Of a stretch of 64,000 nucleotides of DNA, positions 1,989-13,827 are shown piece by piece; the first letter of the stretch is position 1, and every line of letters begins with the position of its first letter. The DNA lies in assembly GCF_013408425.1 (NCBI RefSeq), contig NZ_JACBYV010000001.1, positions 310,001 to 374,000 of the forward strand, in the 5' to 3' direction. Origin of the DNA: Pseudomonas flavescens. GTDB taxonomy: Bacteria > Pseudomonadota > Gammaproteobacteria > Pseudomonadales > Pseudomonadaceae. The position numbers and the translations under genes are program-made. Under the pieces are notes generated by a model. The model was not told where the DNA came from, ran no database searches, and saw nothing but the letters and a program-made list of their open reading frames with translations.

Positions 1989-4900
1989 TTACTCAGACTG
2001 TATGGGCACCTGCTCGATGACCGCCACACGCTGACCGGCCCGCACCGGGGAGCCGGGTTGCACGTGAATGTCTCTGACCACGCCGGCGAAGGGCGCGAGC
2101 AGGGGGATTTCCATTTTCATGGATTCGAGGATCACCAGCACATCGCCCGCCTGGACCTCGGCACCTTCCGCGACCTGGACCTGCCAGAGGTTGCCGGCGA
2201 TGTGGCTGTCGACGCTGTGCTGGCCGGCGCCCAGGGGCGCGTTTTCGCTGGGCTCGGCCACGCCTTCGTCACTTTCGAAGTGCGCCTGGCCAGAGTCGAT
2301 CCAGCGCTGGCGCTCGGCGGCGAAGGCGCTGCGTTGCTGGTCGCGGAAGGCGGCGATGCCGTCTGCTTGGTCCGTGAGGAAGCGCTGATAGTCGGCCAGG
2401 GCCAGTTCGCTGTGTTCGATACGCAGGTCGAAGCGGCCCAGCGGGAAGTCACGACGAATGCGCAGCAGCTCGTCCGCGCTGACCGGGTAGAAGCGGATCT
2501 GGTCGAAGAAGCGCAGCAGCCAGGGCTTGCCGTCGAAGGCGGCGACTTCACGGTAGCGGTTCCACATCTGCAGGGTGCGGCCGACGAACTGGTAGCCGCC
2601 GGGGCCCTCCATGCCGTACACGCACATGTAGGCGCCGCCGATACCCACCGAGTTCTCGGCCGTCCAGGTGCGTGCCGGGTTGTACTTGGTGGTGACCAGG
2701 CGGTGGCGCGGGTCGAGCGGCGTGGCCACCGGTGCACCGAGGTAGACGTCGCCCAGGCCCATCACCAGGTAGCTGGCATCGAACACCGTGCGGTGCACCT
2801 CGTCGAGGTTGGGCAGGTCGTTGATGCGGCGAATGAACTCCAGGTTGCTCGGGCACCAGGGCGCGTCCTTGCGTACGGTGGTCATGTACTTGTCGATGGC
2901 CAACTGGCAGGCCGGGTCATCCCAGGACAGCGGCAGATGGACGATGCGCGACGGCACCTTGAGGTCGCCAGTGGCGCACACGGCGTCCCACTCGCCAGCG
3001 ACGATATCGAGCAACTGCTGCAACGCCAGGGTTTCCGGCTGGTAGTGCACCTGCAGGGAACGGATGCCGGGCGTCAGGTCGATCACCCCGGCGATGTCCT
3101 TGGCTTGCAGCGCCTGCATCAGCGCGTGGCCACGGAAGCGCAATACCAGATCCAGCTCGGGCTGGCCGATTTCCAGCAGCAGGTGGGTGTCGCCAGAGAG
3201 GCGTGCGACCAGGCGGGTGTCGTCCTGGCCGAGGTCGAGGACGATGGGTGAAACAAGCGCCTGTGTAGGAGCTGGCTTGCCAGCGATCCGCCGGCGCGAC
3301 TGATCGCCCGCAAGCGGGCTCCTAAAGGTGGCGTCGAGGCTCCGTGCCAGCTCCCGCGCCGTGGCGATATCCACCGGCACGAAGCGCACCTTGTCGCCGG
3401 CCTTGAGTTGGCCGAGCTGCCAGAGGTCGGCTTCGATGATCGTCACCGGGCAGACGAAACCGCCGAGGCTGGGGCCGTCCGGGCCGAGGATCACGGGCAT
3501 GTCGCCGGTGAAATCCACCGCGCCGATGGCGTAGGGGTTGTCGTGGATGTTGGACGGATGCAGGCCCGCTTCGCCGCCACTCTCGCGTATCCATTCCGGC
3601 TTGGGGCCGATCAGCCGCACGCCGGTGCGGCTGGAGTTGAAGTGCACTTCCCAGTCGGTGCCGAGGAAGGTGTCGATATAGGCCGGGGTGAAGTATTCCG
3701 GTGCGCCGTGAGGGCCGTAGATCACCCGCATCTCGCGCACGGCGGGCAGGGCCGTACCGAGTCCGTCTGGTAGTTGCGCGCCGGCTTGCGTGGTGTCGAG
3801 CGGCGGCAGGTGCAGCACGTCTCCGGCGCGCAGTGCGCGGCCAGCGTGGCCGCCGAACTGGCCGAGGGTGAAGGTGCTCTTGCTGCCCAGGTAGTCCGGC
3901 ACCTGAACGCCGCCACGCACGCTCAGGTAGCTGCGCGCACCGGCACCGGCGATGGTGCCCAGGGCGAGGGTGCTGCCGGCGCGGATCAGCAGGGTGGTGT
4001 TCAAGGGCTGGGCCACGCCGTCGACGCTGAGCGGAATCTGCGCGCCGGTGACCGCCACCAGCGCGTCGGTGTTGAAGCGCAGAGTCGGGCCGCTCATGGT
4101 GATCTCAAGGCCGGCGGCGCCTTCCGGGTTGCCGAGCAGGCGATTGCCCAGGCGCAGGGCGCGGCTGTCCATCGGCCCGGAGGGCGGTACGCCGACTGCC
4201 CAGTAGCCGAGGCGACCGGGAAAGTCCTGCACGGTGGTCTGGGTACCGGCAGCCAGTACCTCGAAGGTGCTGGCCTGATAGACCAGATTCTCCAGGCAGC
4301 GGGTCCAGGGTGAGCCGCTGGCGAAGGGCGTGTCGGCGAGGATCTGGCGCAAGTAGTCGCGGTTCGACTCCACGCCGTACAGCAGCGATTCGCCCAGGGC
4401 GGCATTCAGTGCGCTGCTGGCCTGATCGCGGGTGGGTGCCCAGGCGATCAGCTTGGCGATCATCGGGTCGAAGTAGGGGGGAATCTCGCAGCCCGCTTCG
4501 ACCCAGGTGTCGATGCGCAGCGACTGGCCGTCGGCAGGCGGGAACTGCACAGCGGTGAGCAGGCCAGGGCTGGGCTGGAAGTCGCGACCGGGATCTTCGG
4601 CATACAGCCGCGCCTGGATGGCATGGCCGCGGGGGCTCAGGCCCTCGGCCAGCTCGTGCAGCGGCGCCAGGTCGCCGGCTGCCAGTTCGATCATCCAGCG
4701 CACCAGGTCGACGCCCCATACCTGTTCGGTGACGCCGTGCTCGACCTGCAGGCGGGTATTCACTTCGAGGAAGTAGAAGCGCTCCGCGATGCTGTCGTAG
4801 ACGAACTCCACGGTGCCGGCACTGCGGTAGCTGACCGCCCTGGCCAGTTCGATGGCTGCTGCGCAGAGCGCGTCCGCCATGCCGGCTGGCAGGTTGGGTG

Positions 4901-5627
4901 CCGGGGTTTCTTCCAGCACTTTCTGGTTGCGCCGCTGCACCGAGCAGTCGCGCACGCCGAGGGCGAGCACGTCGCCCTGGCCATCGCCGAACACCTGCAC
5001 TTCCAGGTGGCGGGCACGCTGGATGTACTTCTCGATAAATACGCCGCTGTCGCTGAAGTTGTTCTGCCCGAGGCGCTTGACCGCGTCGAAGGCCTCGCTC
5101 AGTTCCTCTGCCGAACGGCACACACGCATGCCGATGCCGCCGCCGCCAGCGGTGCTCTTGAGCATCACTGGGTAGCCGACCTGCTCGCCAGCGACCAGCG
5201 CGGCGTCGAGGTTTTCCAGCAGGTCGGTGCCTTCGAGCATGGGGATGCCGTGCTGTTTGGCCAGCGCGCGGGCGGTGTGCTTGAGGCCGAACACACGCAG
5301 TTGCTCGGGCGTGGGGCCGACGAAGGCGATGCCGGCCGCTTCGCAGGCCTCGGCGAAAGCGGCGTTTTCGGAGAGGAAGCCGTAGCCGGGATGGATCGCC
5401 TTGGCGCCACTGGCTTTGGCGGCCGCGAGGATCTTGTCGACCACCAGGTAGGTGTGTGCAGCAGGGCCGTCGCCGAGGGAAAAGGCTTCGTCGGCCTGCT
5501 GGATGTGCAGGCTGGCCACGTCCGCCTCGGAGTAGACGGCGACACCTTTGACGTCGAGCGCGTGCAGGGTACGCAGGATGCGGCAGGCGATGGCACCGCG
5601 GTTGGCAATCAGAAGTTTTTCGAACAT
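1989..5627 (-). CDS. uca: biotin-dependent urea/guanidine carboxylase
   Basis: A 1212-residue multidomain protein. Order: biotin carboxylase with ATP-grasp (about 1-450, starting MFEKLLIANRGAIACRIL), a KipA/AHS2-type carboxyltransferase part (about 470-765), a KipI/AHS1-type part (about 790-1010), a spacer, and a biotinyl domain (about 1135-1205) with the ESMKM biotin site. The start is the ATG at 5627 behind a GGGAG ribosome site; an upstream in-frame ATG at 5699 lies in intergenic sequence. The family carboxylates urea or guanidine using ATP and bicarbonate. Guanidine is favoured here because two guanidine-type riboswitches and both carboxyguanidine deiminase subunit genes accompany it. Odd feature: residues about 769-788 (RSPLAGDQSRRRIAGKPAPT) are encoded by a REPIN inserted in frame between the two carboxyltransferase parts. 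No allophanate hydrolase gene follows. Confidence 0.92.
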   Translation of the reverse strand: MFEKLLIANRGAIACRILRTLHALDVKGVAVYSEADVASLHIQQADEAFSLGDGPAAHTYLVVDKILAAAKASGAKAIHPGYGFLSENAAFAEACEAAGIAFVGPTPEQLRVFGLKHTARALAKQHGIPMLEGTDLLENLDAALVAGEQVGYPVMLKSTAGGGGIGMRVCRSAEELSEAFDAVKRLGQNNFSDSGVFIEKYIQRARHLEVQVFGDGQGDVLALGVRDCSVQRRNQKVLEETPAPNLPAGMADALCAAAIELARAVSYRSAGTVEFVYDSIAERFYFLEVNTRLQVEHGVTEQVWGVDLVRWMIELAAGDLAPLHELAEGLSPRGHAIQARLYAEDPGRDFQPSPGLLTAVQFPPADGQSLRIDTWVEAGCEIPPYFDPMIAKLIAWAPTRDQASSALNAALGESLLYGVESNRDYLRQILADTPFASGSPWTRCLENLVYQASTFEVLAAGTQTTVQDFPGRLGYWAVGVPPSGPMDSRALRLGNRLLGNPEGAAGLEITMSGPTLRFNTDALVAVTGAQIPLSVDGVAQPLNTTLLIRAGSTLALGTIAGAGARSYLSVRGGVQVPDYLGSKSTFTLGQFGGHAGRALRAGDVLHLPPLDTTQAGAQLPDGLGTALPAVREMRVIYGPHGAPEYFTPAYIDTFLGTDWEVHFNSSRTGVRLIGPKPEWIRESGGEAGLHPSNIHDNPYAIGAVDFTGDMPVILGPDGPSLGGFVCPVTIIEADLWQLGQLKAGDKVRFVPVDIATARELARSLDATFRSPLAGDQSRRRIAGKPAPTQALVSPIVLDLGQDDTRLVARLSGDTHLLLEIGQPELDLVLRFRGHALMQALQAKDIAGVIDLTPGIRSLQVHYQPETLALQQLLDIVAGEWDAVCATGDLKVPSRIVHLPLSWDDPACQLAIDKYMTTVRKDAPWCPSNLEFIRRINDLPNLDEVHRTVFDASYLVMGLGDVYLGAPVATPLDPRHRLVTTKYNPARTWTAENSVGIGGAYMCVYGMEGPGGYQFVGRTLQMWNRYREVAAFDGKPWLLRFFDQIRFYPVSADELLRIRRDFPLGRFDLRIEHSELALADYQRFLTDQADGIAAFRDQQRSAFAAERQRWIDSGQAHFESDEGVAEPSENAPLGAGQHSVDSHIAGNLWQVQVAEGAEVQAGDVLVILESMKMEIPLLAPFAGVVRDIHVQPGSPVRAGQRVAVIEQVPIQSE
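3264..3326. repeat. REPIN (two inverted REP sequences) inside the carboxylase gene
   Basis: Two REP-like units face each other: TAGGAGC at 3266 with palindrome GCTGGCTTGCCAGC (3271-3284), and palindrome GCCCGCAAGCGGGC (3306-3319) with GCTCCTA ending at 3324. This arrangement is the known REPIN form of Pseudomonas intergenic repeats. The unit from 3264 to 3326 is 63 bases, a multiple of three, and is read through in frame by the carboxylase gene. No other copy was noticed in the window, and no RAYT transposase gene is present. Confidence 0.8.
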
Positions 5628-5663
5628 ATCGGCTCCCGAGCCCGTTCGAAGCTGCTGCGCTCC

Positions 5664-5746
5664 ATCACGCGGCGTTGGCAGCCAGTTCGAAATGCTCATT
5701 TGCTACAGCAAACTCCGCTTTCTCACTGGCAGCCGCCTTGCCTGAT
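5664..5746. repeat. 83-bp imperfect palindrome between riboswitch and carboxylase gene
   Basis: The segment is symmetrical around 5705/5706. The centre is TTTGCT-AC-AGCAAA (5699-5712), the flanks GGCAGCCAGT and ACTGGCAGCC pair with one mismatch, and the outer ends ATCACG and CCTGAT also correspond. It would fold into a long hairpin in RNA from either strand. The size and symmetry suggest a dispersed intergenic element, but only one copy is seen here. It lies in the leader of the carboxylase gene. Confidence 0.6.
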
Positions 5747-5784
5747 GTTCGCTCGCGACGCTTCGCTCCGGCCTCGTTGAACGT

Positions 5785-5833
5785 GGCGGGCCGTCCCGCC
5801 GGTATTGGGTCTGCACCACGGTCGTCCGGGGTG
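5785..5833 (-). promoter_or_regulatory. guanidine-II (mini-ykkC) riboswitch candidate
   Basis: On the minus strand two hairpins follow each other: CACCCCGG-ACGA-CCGTGGTG (5833-5814, one C-U mismatch in the stem) and GGCGGG-ACGG-CCCGCC (5800-5785), separated by 13 bases. Two short GC stems each capped by an ACGR tetraloop are the defining features of the guanidine-II riboswitch, which normally controls ribosome access. Purine-rich stretches CGAGG and GGAG follow within 30 bases, but the carboxylase ATG is about 158 bases downstream because of the palindrome at 5664-5746. Position upstream of a carboxylase gene fits guanidine control. Confidence 0.78.
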
Positions 5834-5880
5834 GGGAATTCTTTTTGGCCTCACTCGGTTCCCACAAAGGATTTCGTTTG

Positions 5881-5970
5881 TTAGGAGGCCGGTGTTTTGT
5901 CTCGGGGCGTAGGTTGCAGCACCTGCCCACTCCTGCTCTGGCACAGGGCGAACAACCAGCGTTTGATCAT
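5881..5970 (-). CDS. possible 29-residue peptide coupled to the deiminase gene
   Basis: An ATG at 5970 overlaps the stop of the DUF1989 gene as ATGA, the usual layout for coupled translation, and opens 29 codons to a TAA at 5881-5883. The peptide begins [15 protein letters not shown] and has a short amphipathic start. A GGAGG lies about 13 bases upstream inside the preceding gene. No family is recognised. It may be a real small protein, a remnant of a deleted gene, or chance. Confidence 0.35.
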
Positions 5971-6602
5971 TCCCATACCAGCACCTCCGCAGGCGTGGGG
6001 TTCCAGCCGTTGCAGGGGTTGTTGAGCTGCGGGCAGTTGGAGATCAGCACGATCACGTCGGTCTCGGCGCGCAGCTCGACGTACTTGCCGGGTGCGGAGA
6101 TGCCGTCTTCGAAGGTCAGGCCGCCGTCCGGGGTGACCGGCACGTTCATGAAGAAGTTGATGTTGGCGCCGATGTCGCGTTTCTCCAGGCGCCCGTCGTG
6201 CAGGCTGGCGCGCAGGAAGTTGTCGCGGCAGCTGTGCATGAAGCGCTTGTCCAGGGCGTAGCGCACGGTGTTGCTCTCCTGGGCGCAGGCGCCACCGAGG
6301 GTATCGTGGCGGCCGCAGGTGTCGGCGACGATGGTCAGCAGCGGGTTACCGAGGTTGGAATAGAGCACCGTGCCGGCAGTCAGGTAGACGTTGTTCTGCT
6401 TGCGCAGGGTGCGCTGCGGGTCGAAGCGCTCACGGGGGTTGCGGGCGCTGTAGAACAGCGTGTCGATGGCCTGGTTGCCCTCCAGGTCGTGCAGGCGCAG
6501 GGTCTGCCCGGCCTTGACCTCGAACAGGTAGGGCTCACCCGCTGCGATGGTGTGGCGAAATACGGCGGTCTCGGGATGCAGGTTGCTTTCGGTCAGGCTC
6601 AT
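5967..6602 (-). CDS. DUF1989 protein, carboxyguanidine deiminase subunit (UAAP2 type)
   Basis: A 211-residue cytoplasmic protein of the DUF1989 family, the shorter of the two proteins long annotated as urea carboxylase-associated (UAAP1/UAAP2). The family metal-site motif DTCGRHD is present (residues about 105-111). The pair forms carboxyguanidine deiminase, which removes ammonia from the carboxylase product to give allophanate. The start ATG at 6602 lies 10 bases after the stop of the paired gene, so the subunits are co-translated. Its C-terminal sequence ends in PAEVLVWE, similar in layout to its partner. Which of CgdA and CgdB it is was not decided. Confidence 0.85.
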
Positions 6603-6612
6603 GTCGGCACCC

Positions 6613-7341
6613 TCAGAGGTATTGGCGTTCGGTGTTGTGGAAGGCGCGGCCGTTTTCCGGGCGCGAGGTACGGCAGAGCACGCTGATGCCGTCGCTCTCG
6701 ACCTTGCTCCAGCTCAGCTGCACCGGCTTGGGCGCGTACTGCGGGTTGGGGTCCATCGGGTGCTGCAGGGCGGTGAGCACCACCAGGGTGTCCATCGGTG
6801 CATACAGCTCGATGTAGTCACCGGCCTGGCTGTTGTCGCCGTGAAAGCGAAAGGCGCCGTCGGCATCGACGCTGACCCTGCTGAACAGGTTGAGGGTCAT
6901 CAGCAGGTCTTGCAGGTTGAGGTTCCACTTGCCCATTTCCACCAGCAGGTTGTCCACGCCGTTGCGGAAGAACCCGTTGCGTAGTTCCTGATAGCGCCCC
7001 TGGCCGTATTTCTCGCTCACCTCACTGGCGGAGAGCACGCCACCGAAACTGTCGTGCCAGCCGCAGGTGTCGGCGGTGATCGCCGCGAGCACGCGGCCCA
7101 TGTCCGAGTACAGGCAATGGCCGGCCGTGAGCTTGGCGGTGTGCTGGCCCTTGAGAGTGTCCGGCAGGTTGAGACGCTCGCTTTTCTCTACGGCGTTGAA
7201 CAGCAGCAGGCTGACGTTGGCGCCGCCTTCGAGGTCGGTGATGCGCAGCAACTGGCCGCGCTTGAGGACGAACGAGGTGTGCCCGCCGCCAGGGAGGGTT
7301 TCTTCGTAGAGGGTAGGGCGCAGGGTCAGGGCAGTGGTCAT
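6613..7341 (-). CDS. DUF1989 protein, carboxyguanidine deiminase subunit (UAAP1 type)
   Basis: A 242-residue DUF1989 protein, paralogous to the next gene, with the metal motif [11 protein letters not shown]. The start at 7341 ([14 protein letters not shown]) was chosen because AAGGAG lies 7 bases before it; an in-frame ATG at 7368 would overlap the transporter gene. It is expected to form a heteromer with its neighbour and to act after the carboxylase. The gap to the ATPase gene is 10 bases, so it belongs to the same transcript as the uptake system. The family once carried urea amidolyase-associated names; the guanidine assignment comes from published work on the family and from the riboswitches here. 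Confidence 0.85.
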
Positions 7342-7351
7342 GGCAGTCTCC

Positions 7352-8122
7352 TTACAGGGCCGGGGCAAGATACGCCGGCAGTGCCGCGATGGCGTTTTTG
7401 CGATCGCTGTTCAGGGGGATGTCGTAGGTGATGCGCGCGCCGAAGGCATTCGGTGCGTGCGGGTCAATGCGGGTCTTGTCGAACACCATCAGGCGGGTGC
7501 CGAGGCTGAAGCCTTCGGCGAGATCGTGGGTGACCATGAACACCGTCAGCCCGGTTTCACGCCACAGCTCCAGCAGCAGGGCGTGCATGTCCTTGCGGAT
7601 GCCGGGGTCGAGGGCGCCGAAGGGTTCGTCGAGCAGCAACACCCGGGGTTTCATGATCAATGCCTGGGCGATGGCCAGGCGCTGCTGCATGCCGCCGGAA
7701 AGCTGGCTGGGGTATTTGTCCAGGGCATGGCCGAGGCCGACCTTGCCGAGGATCGCCGCGGCCTGCTCGCGAGCGTCACGCTTGGCCGCGCCGAACAGGC
7801 GACCGAGCAATGGCGCGCGGGGCAGTTCCAGGCCGATGGCGACGTTGTTCAGCACGCTCAGGTGCGGGAACACCGAATAGCGCTGGAACACCACGCCGCG
7901 GCTGGCATCCGGCTCGCCCACGAGTGGCTCGCCACCCAGCAGGATCTCGCCCTTGCTCGGCCGCTCCTGGCCCAGCAGCAGGCGCAGGAAGGTCGACTTG
8001 CCGCAGCCGGACGCGCCGACCAGGGTGCAGAACTCGCCCTCGGCGATGGACAGGTTCAAGCGTTCCAGAACGATCTGGTCGCCATAGGTCTGCCAGACAT
8101 TTTTCACTTCAATGAAGCTCAT
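7352..8122 (-). CDS. ABC transporter ATPase, guanidine/nitrate-taurine type
   Basis: A 256-residue nucleotide-binding subunit. Walker A is GASGCGKST at 36-44, the signature is LSGGMQQRLAIAQAL and Walker B is VLLLDEPFGALD. The start is the ATG at 8122, whose ATGA overlaps the permease stop; the long reading frame further upstream is only frame extension through the permease gene. It should power the adjacent permease. The SsuB/TauB/NrtD subfamily is used for nitrate, sulphonates and small nitrogen compounds; guanidine is the likely substrate given the riboswitches and the enzymes encoded downstream. Confidence 0.9.
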   Translation of the reverse strand: MSFIEVKNVWQTYGDQIVLERLNLSIAEGEFCTLVGASGCGKSTFLRLLLGQERPSKGEILLGGEPLVGEPDASRGVVFQRYSVFPHLSVLNNVAIGLELPRAPLLGRLFGAAKRDAREQAAAILGKVGLGHALDKYPSQLSGGMQQRLAIAQALIMKPRVLLLDEPFGALDPGIRKDMHALLLELWRETGLTVFMVTHDLAEGFSLGTRLMVFDKTRIDPHAPNAFGARITYDIPLNSDRKNAIAALPAYLAPAL

Positions 8123-8940
8123 GCCTTGGCCCCCTCGTACCAGGGAAAGCACAGCCGCGTCAGCTGACGCAGGCCGAGGTCCATCAGCCAGGCGAGCAGG
8201 GTGATCCACACCACGTAAGGCAGGATCACGTCCATCGCCATGTAGCGGCGCACGAGGAAGATGCGGTAACCCAGGCCGTCGGTACTGGCGATGGCTTCGG
8301 CGGCGATCAGGAACAGCCAGGCGGAGCCCAGTACCAGGCGCAGGGCGATCAGCAGGCGCGGCAGCAGTTGTGGCAGCACGACCCGCAGGATCAGCGTCCA
8401 GGTGCTGGCGCCGAGGGTCTGCGCCTTGATCAGCAGCTCCTGGGGGATTTCCCGGGCGCGCTGCTCCAGGTCGCGGGCGAGGATCGGGGTGATACCGATG
8501 ACGATCAGCATGACCTTGGACAGTTCGCCCAGGCCGAAGACGATGAACAGGATCGGCAGTATCGCCAGTGGCGGCACCATCGACAGCACGGTGAGCAGCG
8601 GTGACAGCGGTGCACGCAGCAGCGGCAGGATGCCGGCGGCGATGCCCAGGCAAAGACCGACCAGCGCAGCGATGCCGATGCCCATGCCGAGACGCGTCAG
8701 GCTCGATGCGGTGTCTTGCCAGAAGGCGTAGCCACCGGTGCGCTTGTCTTCGGTGAAGGCCAGGCGGTCGACGGCGGCGATCATCTGGCTGGCGCTGGGC
8801 AGCAGCTTGTCGTTGGGGTTCTCCGCCAGGCGCTGCGCCGAGCCCATGAAATAGGCGAACAGCAGCAGTGCGAAGGGCAGCAACACCAGCAGCAATCGGC
8901 CGGCCCTGTCGGGGTGTCGGTTGATCAGGCGCATGGGCAT
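8119..8940 (-). CDS. ABC transporter permease, guanidine/nitrate-taurine type
   Basis: A 273-residue inner-membrane protein with about six hydrophobic helices (for example at about 16-32, 85-105, 115-140 and 200-217) and a clear EAA loop with the core LIKAQTLGAS (about residues 168-177), which docks the ATPase. It is of the SsuC/TauC/NrtB type. The ATG at 8940 is followed by a second in-frame ATG two codons later at 8934; neither has a strong ribosome site. It overlaps the ATPase gene by 4 bases, and is separated from the binding-protein gene by a 79-base gap holding a hairpin. Confidence 0.9.
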   Translation of the reverse strand: MPMRLINRHPDRAGRLLLVLLPFALLLFAYFMGSAQRLAENPNDKLLPSASQMIAAVDRLAFTEDKRTGGYAFWQDTASSLTRLGMGIGIAALVGLCLGIAAGILPLLRAPLSPLLTVLSMVPPLAILPILFIVFGLGELSKVMLIVIGITPILARDLEQRAREIPQELLIKAQTLGASTWTLILRVVLPQLLPRLLIALRLVLGSAWLFLIAAEAIASTDGLGYRIFLVRRYMAMDVILPYVVWITLLAWLMDLGLRQLTRLCFPWYEGAKA

Positions 8941-8960
8941 CTCGGGTTACGGTGGCCGGA

Positions 8961-8983
8961 GACGAGACGCCGAGCGTCTCGTC
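8961..8983 (-). other. hairpin between binding-protein and permease genes
   Basis: GACGAGACG and CGTCTCGTC form a perfect 9-bp stem around a five-base loop, with no U-run after it. Hairpins here commonly protect the binding-protein message and reduce expression of the membrane genes, which would give an excess of binding protein. This role is inferred. Confidence 0.55.
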
Positions 8984-9019
8984 ACGTGTTCCCAGGCAGT
9001 GCGAGGGAACGCTTGTCCT

Positions 9020-10087
9020 TCAGAGCTGGCCGTCGGCGGCCATCTGCATGTAGGTCGGGTCGAAGCGCAGCTTGAGGTTGCCCTGATCGCCGGTGGTCAC
9101 GTCGTTGGCGAAGGCCATGCCGACGGCGTCCGCGCTCTGCGCGCCTTCGCCGAGCAGGCCGTGATCGAACGAGAAGGCGGCGACCTTGCTCATGGTTTCC
9201 GGCAGCCGTGGGCTCTTGGTGAAGGCCACGGCTTCCTTGGCGCTGTAGAACATCTTGGTGGTCGCCAACTGCGCCTCGTAGCCCTTGAGGTCGGTGCCGG
9301 AGGCCTTGGCCATGTGCTCGCGGGCAGCCTGGCCGGCAGCGCCGCCATCACCCATGGTCGCCATGATTTCGTACCAGGCACCGGTCAGTGCCTTGCCGAG
9401 GGCTGGGTTGTCCTTGAGGGTGTCGCTGTTGACCACCATCAGGTCGATGATTTCGCCGGGAATCTGGCTGGAGTCGAATACCTTGGTCACGCCGGGCGTG
9501 GCTTCGATTTCCGCGAGCAGCGGGTTCCAGGTGGTGACGGCGGTAACGTCCGGGGTCGCGAAGGCGGCGACGATGTCGGCGTCCGAGGTGTTCACCACCT
9601 TCAGGTCGCGTTCGCTGAGGCCGGCCTTTTCCAGGCCGCGGGCGAGCAGGTAGTGCGATACCGAGAGCTCGACCAGGTTGACGTTCTGGCCCTTGAGATC
9701 GCCCAGGGTCTTCTTTTCACCCTTGAGCACGATGCCGTCGTTGCCGTTGGAGAAGTCGCCGACGATCAGTGCCGTGCTGTCGACACCGCCAGCGGCAGGG
9801 ATGGTCAGGGCGTCCATGTTGGTCATGGCGCAGCCGTCGAACTGGCCGGCGCTGTACTGGTTGATCGATTCGACGTAGTCGTTGATCTGCACGACATCGA
9901 TGTCGATGCCGTACTTCTTCGCCCACTTGTCGACGATGCCTTGGGTGGCACCGTACTCCCAGGGCATCCAGCCGGCATAGATGGTCCAGCACACGCTGAA
10001 GCTGTCCTTCTGGGCAGCCTGGCCGTTGAGGGAGATGGCAGCCGCGAGACCGGCGGCGAGAACGGAGAAAAGACGGGGCTTGCGCAT
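9020..10087 (-). CDS. periplasmic substrate-binding protein of the guanidine-type ABC transporter
   Basis: A 355-residue protein beginning MRKPRLFSVLAAGLAAAISL, a classical signal peptide with cleavage near NGQAAQ. The mature part is an SsuA/TauA/NMT1-like binding protein with the lobe motif IYAGWMPWEYG near its start. The ATG at 10087 follows a GGAGG; the frame is open further upstream, but that stretch is the riboswitch leader. It is the first gene of the operon and captures the substrate in the periplasm. Its message follows directly on the guanidine-I riboswitch, which is the main reason to name guanidine as ligand. Confidence 0.88.
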   Translation of the reverse strand: MRKPRLFSVLAAGLAAAISLNGQAAQKDSFSVCWTIYAGWMPWEYGATQGIVDKWAKKYGIDIDVVQINDYVESINQYSAGQFDGCAMTNMDALTIPAAGGVDSTALIVGDFSNGNDGIVLKGEKKTLGDLKGQNVNLVELSVSHYLLARGLEKAGLSERDLKVVNTSDADIVAAFATPDVTAVTTWNPLLAEIEATPGVTKVFDSSQIPGEIIDLMVVNSDTLKDNPALGKALTGAWYEIMATMGDGGAAGQAAREHMAKASGTDLKGYEAQLATTKMFYSAKEAVAFTKSPRLPETMSKVAAFSFDHGLLGEGAQSADAVGMAFANDVTTGDQGNLKLRFDPTYMQMAADGQL

Positions 10088-10153
10088 GGAGACCTCCAGT
10101 TCGAGAAAGGGCGGAGCAGGAGTGCGCGGCATCTCCCATCGCTGGGGGCGCGT

Positions 10154-10250
10154 TCTCCCGGGCTTTTGTCCCGCCGTGTAACCCCTCGAGGAGGTCGCCA
10201 ACTCTCGGACCAGTCATTCGCCTGCTGATTGGCGAATCGGAACCCTAGTC
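10154..10250 (-). promoter_or_regulatory. guanidine-I (ykkC) riboswitch
   Basis: The minus strand contains the conserved blocks of the ykkC class in the right order: CTAGGGTTCCG (10248-10238), ACTGGTCCGAGAG (about 10216-10204) and ACACGGCGGGACAAAAGCCC followed by GGGAGA (ending 10154). These match the known guanidine-I aptamer consensus closely. The aptamer ends about 67 bases before the binding-protein ATG. No clear intrinsic terminator is visible after it, so control could be at translation or by another mode of termination. Confidence 0.92.
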
Positions 10251-10317
10251 GGCTATTGCAAATTGTGATGCCGCTGTCCCGGGCCGCTGCCTGGGATTTT
10301 CCTGCACGCAATGCCTT

Positions 10318-10334
10318 AAGCGAGGATCGTGCCA
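10318..10334 (-). promoter_or_regulatory. sigma-54 promoter of the guanidine operon
   Basis: The minus strand reads TGGCACGATCCTCGCTT. The -24 element TGGCACG is exact, and GG and GC are separated by 10 bases as required; the -12 element is TCGCT instead of TTGCW. Transcription would begin near 10306, about 55 bases before the riboswitch. The rest of the upstream gap, to 10593, shows no gene. Confidence 0.65.
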
Positions 10335-10387
10335 GGCACTGGCGCGTCGTCTAGCCTGAGCGTGGGCGGATTTGCTGGGAAACTCTC

Positions 10388-10404
10388 TGCGCTTTCATGG
10401 TGCG
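10388..10404 (-). promoter_or_regulatory. possible NtrC enhancer site
   Basis: TGCGCT-TTCAT-GGTGCG resembles the NtrC site TGCACC-N5-GGTGCA at 9 of 12 conserved positions. It lies about 55-70 bases upstream of the sigma-54 promoter, a usual enhancer distance. The match is degenerate and was found by eye. Confidence 0.35.
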
Positions 10405-10593
10405 CGATGGGAACTGGTTGCGCGGTTTCGGCGCGCGCTTTCAGTGCGCCCGTTGAGCGCTGCTGAAATCATTTGTTGCGACTCACCGACGAGTGGAGCG
10501 GATTCGGCTGGCGCCGGGTTGTCTGATGGATTGGGAACACTCCCGGCATCGGCAGCCGCCGATGTGCGTTTCGCGGTCGAAGGAGGCCGCCCC

Positions 10594-11049
10594 ATGATCC
10601 GTAAATCCATGCTCGTCGCGTTGTTGGGTTTCTCGCTGACCGGTTGTGCCGTTTATGGCGACAGCGGCTATGGCGGTGGTTATCGAGATTATGATCGTCA
10701 GTATTACCCCGGTGCTCACGTACAGCGCTCCCAGGTTTATGGGGCGCCGCGTGTGTATGTCTACGAGGACCGCCGCTACGACCGTCGCTACTCACCGCCA
10801 CGGCACTATGCGCCGCCTCCACCGCCTCGTTATTTCAACCAGCCCGGTGGCTACGATCCGCGTTACCAGAACCGTCACGACCGCAATCGTGGCGATTACC
10901 GCCCGTCACCACGCCCGGGTTGGGAAGGGCAGCGCCATCACTATCAGCAGCAACAGCGGCACCGCTCCGCGCCCTTGCAGTGGCAACAGCGTGAAGCGCC
11001 TCAACGCATTCAGCGCATCCAGGGTGGCGGCTGGAATCGCGAGCGCTGA
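10594..11049 (+). CDS. tyrosine/proline/arginine-rich lipoprotein, unknown function
   Basis: A 151-residue protein with a lipoprotein signal: MIRKSMLVALLGFSLTGC, lipobox LTGC with Cys18. The ATG at 10594 follows AGGAGG; the frame upstream of it is non-coding leader. After the lipid-anchored Cys the chain is very low in complexity: many Tyr, Arg, Pro, His and Gln, with short repeats such as YDRRY and PPPPPRYF. No catalytic motif is visible. It is transcribed towards lapG, but an 11-bp hairpin lies between them, so it may be a separate unit. Outer-membrane location is expected from Ala-Val after the Cys rather than Asp. Confidence 0.72.
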   Translation: MIRKSMLVALLGFSLTGCAVYGDSGYGGGYRDYDRQYYPGAHVQRSQVYGAPRVYVYEDRRYDRRYSPPRHYAPPPPPRYFNQPGGYDPRYQNRHDRNRGDYRPSPRPGWEGQRHHYQQQQRHRSAPLQWQQREAPQRIQRIQGGGWNRER

Positions 11050-11070
11050 TCTTCACAAACTAAATCTCAC

Positions 11071-11095
11071 CTGATGCGCTCCCGGAGCGCATCAG
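11071..11095. terminator. hairpin after the lipoprotein gene
   Basis: CTGATGCGCTC and GAGCGCATCAG form an 11-bp perfect stem with a three-base loop, 22 bases after the lipoprotein stop. There is no U-run, so it is an atypical terminator or an RNA-stabilising hairpin. Confidence 0.5.
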
Positions 11096-11184
11096 CACGT
11101 TCGTCGCCTGTAGTGGCATCTGGCAATTGTTTTTTACCCGCGTGCGCCGCACCATGACGCTGTTGCTTGTCTGGAAGCATTGTC

Positions 11185-11874
11185 GTGGCCATCGGCGGTT
11201 CTGGCTCTCTCTCAATCCGTTACCGCTGGCCCGTGCTGGTGGCGTTTTTGCTCGCCTTGTTCTTGGCGGCTGGCGGATTGCACGCGCAATGGGATTTCCA
11301 GCGGATCGCCGCCCGCGCCGAGCAACTCTATGGCCCGTTGGGCGCCGGCAAGCCACGCATCGACGCCTGGCAGCGCCTGCTCGACGAGCAGCGTAATGCC
11401 AGCGAGGCCGACAAGCTCAAGGCCATCAACCGGTTCTTCAATCTGCAGCTGCGCTTTCGCGATGACCAGGAAATCTGGGGCGTCACGGATTACTGGGCGA
11501 CGCCGGTCGAGGCCCTGATGCGTGGCGCCGGCGATTGCGAGGATTACGCCATCGCCAAGTATTTCAGCCTGCGTGAGTTGGGTGTGCCGAGCGAAAAGCT
11601 GCGCATCACTTACGTCAAGGCGGTGCGCCTGAACCAGGCGCACATGGTACTGACCTATTACCCGACCCCCACCTCCGTGCCTCTGGTGCTGGATAACCTG
11701 ATCGATGCCATCGATCCGGCGACCGAGCGCCGTGACCTGGTACCCGTGTATGCCTTCAATGCCGAGGGACTCTGGGTGCCAGGGCCAGCAGGCGGCAAGC
11801 AGGTGGGAGACAGCAAGCGCCTTTCGCGCTGGCAGGATTTGTTGAAGAAGATGCGCGCCGAAGGGTTTCCCTGA
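11185..11874 (+). CDS. lapG: LapG periplasmic adhesin protease
   Basis: A transglutaminase-like cysteine protease (family C93). The GTG at 11185 is preferred because GGAAG lies 7 bases before it; a TTG at 11167 is the alternative. A signal peptide/anchor covers about residues 15-34. The catalytic triad is visible as Cys118 (in AGDCEDYA), His153 (QAHMV) and Asp170 (VLDN). The acidic residues on both sides of the Cys, Asp117 and Glu119, correspond to the known calcium ligands of LapG. It cuts LapA after the N-terminal retention module when it is not held by LapD. lapD starts 22 bases after its stop, so the two are co-transcribed. Confidence 0.93.
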   Translation: MAIGGSGSLSIRYRWPVLVAFLLALFLAAGGLHAQWDFQRIAARAEQLYGPLGAGKPRIDAWQRLLDEQRNASEADKLKAINRFFNLQLRFRDDQEIWGVTDYWATPVEALMRGAGDCEDYAIAKYFSLRELGVPSEKLRITYVKAVRLNQAHMVLTYYPTPTSVPLVLDNLIDAIDPATERRDLVPVYAFNAEGLWVPGPAGGKQVGDSKRLSRWQDLLKKMRAEGFP

Positions 11875-11895
11875 GGCGTAGCGAAGGAGTCGTTC

Positions 11896-13827
11896 ATGTC
11901 ACTGTTCAAGCAGCTGTGTGTAGCCATCTGCGTGCTGATGCTGGTGAGTTTCACCGCAAGCGTCGTGGTCAACGTGGAGAGCTCGCGCGAGCAGCAGGTC
12001 AACCAGCTGCGCGCCCATGCCCAGGACGCCGCGACTGCGCTGGGCCTGTCGCTCGGCTCGCATCTGAACGATCCGGCGATGCTGGAGCTGATGGTCAGCT
12101 CGATTTTCGACAGTGGCTACTTCGAGAGCATCCGCGTGATCGGCACGGACGAGAAGGTGCTGACCGAGCGCTCCGGCGCCAACCTCGACGCGGGCGCGCC
12201 ACAGTGGTTCGCCAATCTGGTGGATCTGGCGCCGGCCCAGGGCGACGCTATCGTCAGTGACGGCTGGAACCAGGCGGCCCGCGTCGAGGTGGTCAGCCAT
12301 CCGTATTTCGCCATCGCCAAGCTGTGGCAGACCGCCTACGCCACCTTCCTGTGGCTGGCGCTGATCAGCCTGCTGTGCATCGGCCTGGGCGTGCTGCTGC
12401 TCAAGCGGCAGTTGCGCCCGCTGGAGTACATGGTCGAGCAGTCCAATGCCATCGCTCGCCGGGAGTTCCTCAGTGCATCGAACCTGCCGCGCACCCCGGA
12501 GTTTCGCCGGGTGGTCAACGCCATGAACCAGATGGTGGAGAAGCTCAAGGCACTGTTCGACGAAGAGGCTTCGCGCAGCGAGAAGCTGCACGCCGAGGCC
12601 TATCAGGACAGCCTGACCGGGCTGGCCAACCGCCGTTATTTCGACCTCGACCTGCAGGCCCGGCTGACGGGCGAAGAGCGAGCCAGCAGCGGTGTGCTGT
12701 TCCTGTTGCGGGTCAATGACCTGGTGGGTCTCAACCAGCGCATCGGTGGCCAGCGTACGGACCAGTTGCTCAAGGCCGTGGCCGAGCAGTTGCAGCATGT
12801 CAGCCAGGGGCGCTACCTGCTGGCGCGCAACCGCGGTGGCGAGTTCGCGCTGCTGGCCGCGGGCATCGATCGCCAGGAGGCCGAGCAACTGGCCGAACAA
12901 CTGAGCAATGGCCTGCTTTCGTTGCAGCAGACCGGTGCCAGCGACTGTTTCCCGGTTGCCCATATCGGTATCACCACCTTCGCAGCGGGCGCTTCGAGCA
13001 GCGAGCTGTACAACGCGCTGGATGCGGCACTGGCCGAAGCGATCAGCCAGAACCGCGAGCACTGGGCGTTCGTCGAGCATCGTCAGCAGGCCGCAGTCAG
13101 CGACGAGCACAACGATTGGCACAGCCTGCTCGACAATGCCCTCGAGCAGGGGCGCTTCCTGCCGTACGTGCAGCCGGTGGTCAGTGCCGCCGATCCCACC
13201 CAGGTGCTGCACAACAAGGTGCTGGCCCGTCTGCAGGACGAGCAGGGCGAAACCATCGCCGCTGGGCGTTTCCTGCCCTGGCTGGAGCGATTCGGCTGGA
13301 CCGCACGTCTGGATCTGGTGATGCTCGATGCCCTGCTGGCGCAGTTGCCTGACCATGATGGCAAGGTGGCGCTCAGCCTGTCGGGCATCACCGTGCGCGA
13401 TCCTCAGGCGCTGCAGCAGCTCTACGAACGCTTGCGGCTCAACCCGGCGGTGAGTGGCCGGCTGATTCTGGAGCTGGACGAGGGACAGTTGCCGGGCCCG
13501 GTAGAGCTCGAAGCGATCACCCGCAAACTGCGCAGCCTGGGCGTCGAGCTTGGTTTGCAGCATTTCGGTGGGCGTTTCAGCATGATCGGCAACCTGGCGA
13601 AGTTGGGCCTGGCCTACCTCAAGGTGGATGGCAGCTTCATTCGCGGTATCGATCAGGAAAGTGACAAACGCTTGTTCATCGAAGCCATGCAGCGAGCGGC
13701 CAATAGCATCGATCTGCCATTGATCGCCGAGCGGGTGGAAACCCGCGGCGAGTGGGAAGTGTTGCAGGCTATGGGGGTCAGCGGCGTGCAGGGGCGTCTG
13801 TTCAGCGAGCCTGCGGCCTGGGCCTGA
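11896..13827 (+). CDS. lapD: LapD inside-out c-di-GMP receptor
   Basis: A 643-residue inner-membrane protein: TM1 about 5-25, a periplasmic domain about 26-150, TM2 about 150-173, HAMP, then a GGDEF-like and an EAL-like domain. Both enzymatic domains are degenerate as in known LapD: RGGEF (about 313-317) instead of GGDEF, and KVLARL (about 441-446) where EAL is expected, so it should bind rather than make or degrade c-di-GMP. Trp124 in DGWNQAARVEV matches the tryptophan with which LapD holds LapG. With c-di-GMP bound it sequesters LapG and keeps LapA on the surface. The ATG at 11896 follows AAGGAG. Confidence 0.94.
   Translation: MSLFKQLCVAICVLMLVSFTASVVVNVESSREQQVNQLRAHAQDAATALGLSLGSHLNDPAMLELMVSSIFDSGYFESIRVIGTDEKVLTERSGANLDAGAPQWFANLVDLAPAQGDAIVSDGWNQAARVEVVSHPYFAIAKLWQTAYATFLWLALISLLCIGLGVLLLKRQLRPLEYMVEQSNAIARREFLSASNLPRTPEFRRVVNAMNQMVEKLKALFDEEASRSEKLHAEAYQDSLTGLANRRYFDLDLQARLTGEERASSGVLFLLRVNDLVGLNQRIGGQRTDQLLKAVAEQLQHVSQGRYLLARNRGGEFALLAAGIDRQEAEQLAEQLSNGLLSLQQTGASDCFPVAHIGITTFAAGASSSELYNALDAALAEAISQNREHWAFVEHRQQAAVSDEHNDWHSLLDNALEQGRFLPYVQPVVSAADPTQVLHNKVLARLQDEQGETIAAGRFLPWLERFGWTARLDLVMLDALLAQLPDHDGKVALSLSGITVRDPQALQQLYERLRLNPAVSGRLILELDEGQLPGPVELEAITRKLRSLGVELGLQHFGGRFSMIGNLAKLGLAYLKVDGSFIRGIDQESDKRLFIEAMQRAANSIDLPLIAERVETRGEWEVLQAMGVSGVQGRLFSEPAAWA

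Follow-up and report, generated by a model that had tools for sequence, protein, structure and literature searches.

Two guanidine riboswitch classes in a conserved Pseudomonas operon, with a palindromic repeat inserted before the carboxylase gene

Introduction

Guanidine assimilation operons that carry two riboswitch classes have been described in other bacteria. In Vreelandella boliviensis, the available text of one report (PMC12508155, Nat Commun 2025) places a guanidine-I riboswitch (Gd-I) in the 5' leader of the carboxylase operon and a guanidine-II riboswitch (Gd-II) between cgdB and gca. In-line probing there showed that both RNAs bind guanidine, with apparent KD values of 44 and 93 uM, and the same split that we favour below, into transcriptional and translational control, is proposed. 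In Raoultella terrigena, Erwinia rhapontici, and Klebsiella michiganensis, according to the accessible part of a 2025 review (PMC12186494), an importer and a deaminase stand under Gd-I and the carboxylase directly downstream stands under Gd-II. A review of tandem riboswitches gives, in the sections available, no tandem arrangement in any guanidine class (PMC9481103). Here we analyze a 64-kb stretch of Pseudomonas flavescens DNA (the window, meaning that whole stretch), in which the genes of a guanidine operon run from 10087 to 1989 on the minus strand, with a Gd-I leader before them and a Gd-II element before the carboxylase gene gca. An earlier sequence-only reading of this DNA knew of no well-described example of such a layout, a view that the Vreelandella report and the Raoultella, Erwinia, and Klebsiella cases, as far as the available texts go, overturn. 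The locus is a real and well-conserved instance of an already published arrangement, and the feature that distinguishes it from nearly all relatives seen is the insertion of a repeat between Gd-II and gca.

Results

A cmscan run over the whole window at gathering thresholds returned exactly two matches, one to each class:

10153..10259, minus strand, guanidine-I (ykkC) aptamer, RF00442 (89.8 bits, gathering 63, E 8e-15, positions 1-107 of 107)
5786..5833, minus strand, guanidine-II (mini-ykkC) aptamer, RF01068 (39.5 bits, gathering 32, E 2.3e-4, positions 1-48 of 48)

With both covariance matches over their gathering scores, the proposal that two guanidine classes occur here was borne out, as was the placing of the second inside the operon directly before the carboxylase, Gd-II lying between cgdB and gca. 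Its described marks were also found: P1 (5833-5814) and P2 (5800-5785, as a 6-bp stem) carry the loops ACGA and ACGG and stand 13 bases apart, and P1 contains one non-pairing position (C.U). Both elements were confirmed at the positions first given for them, with end points 0 to 9 bases off. The Gd-II match had E = 3.4e-5 when only 3000-12500 was scanned. The genome holds one copy of Gd-I and two of Gd-II; the second Gd-II, at C1:2784670-2784719 (34.9 bits), ends 18 bases before a gene for a SugE-type SMR exporter.

The same gap was compared in relatives, as the sequence-only reading had suggested. The carboxylase and the two Rfam families were searched for in 115 related genomes, of which 71, counting this genome, belong to the genus; where a search spanned more than 40 genomes, stricter filters applied, at the cost of weak matches. 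Distances were taken for 51 carboxylase orthologues and for 3 of 11 listed paralogues (54-55% identity), and the three paralogues measured had neither Gd-I nor Gd-II. An orthologue was present in 42 of the 71 same-genus genomes, and both elements were found in all 42, which makes the arrangement, once thought possibly new, a rule of the genus wherever the carboxylase is present. Gd-I lies 4.2-4.6 kb upstream in these loci, except for 3.2 kb in genome G063, while Gd-II stands 11-46 bases before the start codon in 40 of them and 158 bases before it in two, this genome and G063. In a set of 80 named loci, partly from the same species, both Gd-II loops stand before gca in 79 and the 80th matches one loop by pattern. 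Gd-I was recognized by a strict pattern in 73 of the 80, and five of the seven without it begin no more than 4.5 kb from a contig end. Sites away from gca number 60 of 108 for Gd-II and three for Gd-I. In G013, G014, G028, G054, and G063 a second or third Gd-I was seen, at least 1.4 kb upstream of the operon's own Gd-I or between Gd-I and gca.

We hold with good confidence that this is a guanidine operon of known type, with Gd-I as an ON switch at its head and Gd-II as a translational ON switch for the carboxylase. Such a division is still the best reading of the staged control proposed from the sequence alone. However, fine control of the carboxylase by Gd-II, the other half of that proposal, cannot be assumed here, because the 158-base gap holds a repeat insertion. 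At the head of the operon, in the absence of guanidine, the 3' part of the aptamer would pair with a downstream segment into a terminator-like helix; with guanidine bound, Gd-I would retain that strand and the message would be made. The folds identify the candidate partner as follows:

10109..10121, minus strand, segment CUCCUGCUCCGCC, predicted partner of the aptamer 3' part in the terminator-like helix of the ligand-free state

A weak U-tract, CUUUCUCG, directly follows this segment, and in the predicted fold the GGGAG at the aptamer end pairs into the downstream tail in 95 of 98 unique Gd-I leaders, the window included. The word YTCC occurs in 105 of 117 unique Gd-I tails, and CUCC could pair with a Shine-Dalgarno GGAG. 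A purely translational Gd-I switch was considered and rejected, since the fold across the aptamer 3' part favoured the terminator-like helix.

At Gd-II, most relatives are predicted to sequester the Shine-Dalgarno sequence in a hairpin that immediately follows P2; guanidine binding would release it for translation of the carboxylase. That the ligand opens this hairpin we infer from the published model of the class, which, in the text available, places the anti-Shine-Dalgarno elsewhere (PMC9094411). When the spacers after P2 were folded alone, 42 of the 55 short ones and 37 of the 39 longer ones had at least half of their Shine-Dalgarno Gs paired. The longer spacers contain an extra hairpin of varying sequence within the predicted Shine-Dalgarno hairpin, which suggests that the post-P2 loop took up extra sequence earlier. 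Pairing of the P1-P2 linker with the first gca codons appeared in some folds; it was not evident in the window's group, and the idea was dropped.

Several observations weigh against this division of labour. The longest U run in this Gd-I leader is 3, at least four Us occur in just 16 of 117 unique Gd-I tails of relatives, and a terminator scan gave none on the operon strand. Because the U-tract is poor (on average 2.4 Us per 8 bases after the predicted helix in unique leaders) and the scan gave no terminator, termination at Gd-I may require Rho, or Gd-I may act by something other than termination. A search of the Gd-I tails for short perfect stems also found no terminator, by a criterion too strict for an interrupted stem. 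The post-P2 helix comes from short stretches, with median z values of only -1.55 and -1.29 against simple shuffles. Outside the genus, only three of nine orthologues have both elements with Gd-II adjacent; two have both with Gd-II 1.5-2.6 kb away (one under the cut-off), three have Gd-I only, and one has Gd-II only. Finally, the insert may have severed the link between Gd-II and gca in this genome.

This insert and the sites on either side of it are:

5641..5771, minus strand, 131-base insert, a copy of a dispersed palindromic repeat (repeat search, alignment), predicted to form a single long hairpin
5772..5776, minus strand, remnant of the ancestral Shine-Dalgarno (CGAGG) beside P2, with no start codon near (alignment with five insert-free relatives)
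5633..5638, minus strand, present Shine-Dalgarno (CGGGAG) before gca (sequence)

In the alignment with the five insert-free relatives, the insertion point lies just past the ancestral CGAGG. The close coupling of Gd-II to a Shine-Dalgarno sequence that is usual in relatives, and is no part of the Rfam definition, is not seen here. The repeat has 40 matches in the genome at E <=10, and 14 at E <0.01, the gca locus included. Among the 80 named loci, those of P. daroniae and P. composti also have it before gca, and so does G063. In total it stands before gca in four of 398 genomes of the genus, counting this one, a tally in which some genomes may have no gca and named genomes may be of the same species. 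A strong match to the repeat occurs in 18 of the 398, and in 14 of these it is elsewhere or was not seen at gca. A match of the insert to sX9 (RF02228) at 20.9 bits and E 2.7 fell below the gathering score of 44, and membership was not accepted; one of 14 other repeat copies scanned also matched, at 23.6 bits and E 3.1, again below 44.

Near C1:4684535, a match to the cobalamin riboswitch aptamer (98.2 bits) has in one of its loops a 142-base insertion that is filled by a further copy, so that one copy lies inside one riboswitch and another, at gca, directly behind a second. Yet another copy lies 27 bases from a match to gabT RNA that, at 37.8 bits, stays below the gathering score of 45.

The four inserts before gca are 89-98% identical to one another, and other copies in the genome are 71-84% identical over the aligned part of the stronger matches. 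In a quick carboxylase tree of 29 rows, four of them with the insert, the insert label needs three changes. Because the inserts resemble one another more closely than they do the genome's other copies, a single insertion followed by losses or local recombination seems likelier than three separate insertions.

A speculative reading, less likely than not, is that the dispersed palindromic repeat was adopted as the expression platform of Gd-II. Lying behind the ancestral Shine-Dalgarno, it would have brought a replacement; once it is folded as a hairpin, the old CGAGG would pair beside the new site, ribosome binding would again take place near the aptamer, and the sequence would since have been allowed to change less than the gene. 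The new site may in this way be brought back near Gd-II by the predicted folding: the consensus fold of the four inserts is a single long hairpin whose predicted base, CGAG/CUCG, stands beside P2. The predicted mean unpaired probability of the new Shine-Dalgarno is 0.15-0.18 in the four insert-bearing sequences. In the consensus fold two pairs have changed on both sides and are kept, yet seven are broken in one sequence each, and with a covariation term of +0.19 covariation alone gives the fold no support. Against P. daroniae, identity is 98.5% for the insert, 90.4% for the first 2200 bases of gca (92% for the first 300), 87.5% for the aptamer, and 38.5% for the 85 bases upstream. Against G063 and P. 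composti, respectively, it is 92.4% and 89.3% for the insert, 86.4% and 86.8% for the gene, and 81.2% in both cases for the aptamer. The probability of at most two differences in 131 bases at the gene's rate is 0.0002-0.0014 by a simple binomial that does not allow for gene conversion. A rebuilt platform would fit these data, and so, equally well, would a passive insert whose copies happen to be alike through recent spread.

A serious possibility, though short of a probable one, is that the repeat uncoupled Gd-II from the carboxylase in this genome, leaving an aptamer that is a relic or acts on an orphaned Shine-Dalgarno, with Gd-I alone controlling gca. The old CGAGG stays beside the aptamer without a start codon, gca uses the new site about 135 bases on, and the aptamer shared with P. 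daroniae is less well kept (87.5%) than the gene (90.4-92%), with P1 pairs broken or weakened in both. Against uncoupling, the four aligned sequences with the insert show no difference in P2 or in either loop, the aptamer is retained where the 85 bases upstream have diverged beyond alignment, and the insert is conserved more than the gene.

The reading of Gd-I and Gd-II as two switches on one message faces two further alternatives. A separate Gd-II transcript, made from a promoter between cgdB and gca and giving two transcription units, is improbable. The distance from the cgdB stop to P1, 133 bases in the window and a median of 157 in 124 loci, speaks for it; yet Gd-II follows the cgdB stop within 30 bases in 13 of the 124 loci, which leaves little space for one, and an overlapping small open reading frame (ORF) fills most of the window's gap. 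No sigma-70-like promoter was found at 5560-6050, where 0.1 is expected by chance, so this is weak evidence. That two GC-rich hairpins resemble Gd-II by chance, as the small motif and its E of 2.3e-4 in the window might allow, is hardly credible and was ruled out because both elements are kept at the same places in relatives (42/42 same-genus loci, and both loops in 79/80 named loci).

The small ORF between cgdB and Gd-II is itself conserved:

5881..5976, minus strand, conserved small ORF of 31 residues here, overlapping the end of cgdB (codon conservation, profile search)

An ORF of 25-59 codons with a 16-residue core, overlapping the cgdB end, was found in 76 of 124 loci. Its start takes the A of a GTA or ATA codon before TGG in 75 of the 76 loci with the motif, compared with 6 of the 48 without it, and two of these six resemble diverged members. 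Over 71 unique 16-codon cores, pN/pS was 0.28 in frame, against 1.15 and 2.17 in the other sense frames and 0.53-2.07 in antisense; this codon pattern points to purifying selection. A profile made from loci of this kind gave one match in each of 31 of the 115 relatives, all 31 in the cgdB-gca gap. Across 369 genomes of the class, a strong score was obtained in this genome only, and the 11 weak matches (best E 3.9e-4) look like chance. The 48 loci lacking the ORF include the insert-bearing G063 and P. composti. Three members searched against Pfam and NCBIfam gave no match. Our guess is that the product might be a translationally coupled partner of CgdAB.

The genes of the operon, in order of transcription, are:

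9020..10087, minus strand, periplasmic substrate-binding protein of an uptake ABC transporter, TIGR03427 (581 bits, cut-off 334)
8119..8940, minus strand, ABC transporter permease, PF00528
7352..8122, minus strand, ABC transporter ATP-binding protein, PF00005
6613..7341, minus strand, UAAP1, DUF1989, TIGR03425 (327 bits, cut-off 206), cgdA-type subunit of carboxyguanidine deaminase
5967..6602, minus strand, UAAP2, DUF1989, TIGR03424 (328 bits, cut-off 285), cgdB-type subunit of carboxyguanidine deaminase
1989..5627, minus strand, gca, guanidine (urea-type) carboxylase, TIGR02712 (1865 bits, cut-off 1304)

By family assignment, these genes appear to fit a known operon type for guanidine assimilation, comprising importer, carboxyguanidine deaminase, and guanidine carboxylase. 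UAAP1 and UAAP2 are taken as putative deaminase subunits, with the cgd naming adopted from the literature, and guanidine, not urea, is read from the riboswitches as the putative substrate of gca. In guanidine carboxylases, as compared with urea carboxylases, aspartate replaces asparagine at the substrate site, according to the available part of PMC12186494. A gca start at 5699, giving a longer ORF, was rejected: read by eye, the G063 sequence has an in-frame stop after that ATG and ahead of MFEKLL, and no clear Shine-Dalgarno sequence precedes the ATG. The gene 3' of gca encodes a GGDEF protein. Allophanate hydrolase is absent from the operon, and the genome's single match over the cut-off lies at C1:4138207-4139874, about 3.8 Mb off. 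There (C1:4138207-4143843) it adjoins a 55% identical carboxylase paralogue with no guanidine riboswitch nearby. The guanidine operon may depend on this distant enzyme.

Within gca, at about 3263-3325 of the window, the reading frame runs through a REP-like inverted repeat, which forms part of the linker that joins the carboxyltransferase subdomains. By what we take to be the REP motif, an 8-mer of this type occurs in 62 of 121 unique linkers from relatives (27,126 bases in total), compared with 3 words in 389,849 bases of other carboxylase sequence. Judged by these counts, the linker is apparently a hotspot for REP-like insertion within a coding gene.

Discussion

The double-class layout is usual for this operon in Pseudomonas, and the question of why one ligand is sensed twice on one message can now be asked across many genomes. 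Relatives with and without the insert provide a natural experiment: they can show what distance between aptamer and ribosome site is tolerated, and whether dispersed repeats can become riboswitch platforms. The small gene that lies between cgdB and Gd-II adds a candidate new component of guanidine metabolism, open to testing.

Tandem riboswitches resemble this locus in that more than one riboswitch stands on one message. However, the tandem review, in its available sections, apparently counts neighbours in one leader (PMC9481103), whereas the two elements here lie about 4.3 kb apart, before different genes. The Raoultella, Erwinia, and Klebsiella operons, which belong to a different bacterial order, have the same division between Gd-I and Gd-II, but the accessible text of PMC12186494 places an allophanate hydrolase in their Gd-II part, which is not the case here. 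The Gd-II of E. coli sugE, a proposed translational ON switch, likewise has two hairpins with ACGR loops. Its putative anti-Shine-Dalgarno is placed in the linker in the available part of PMC9094411; here the predicted partner comes after P2. Closest is the V. boliviensis operon as given in the available text of PMC12508155, which shares the ABC transporter, cgdAB, and gca, with Gd-I at the head and Gd-II before gca. There mgdH, mgdL, and atzF follow gca, and none of these does so here; conversely, the repeat between Gd-II and gca belongs to the P. flavescens locus and sets it apart from V. boliviensis.

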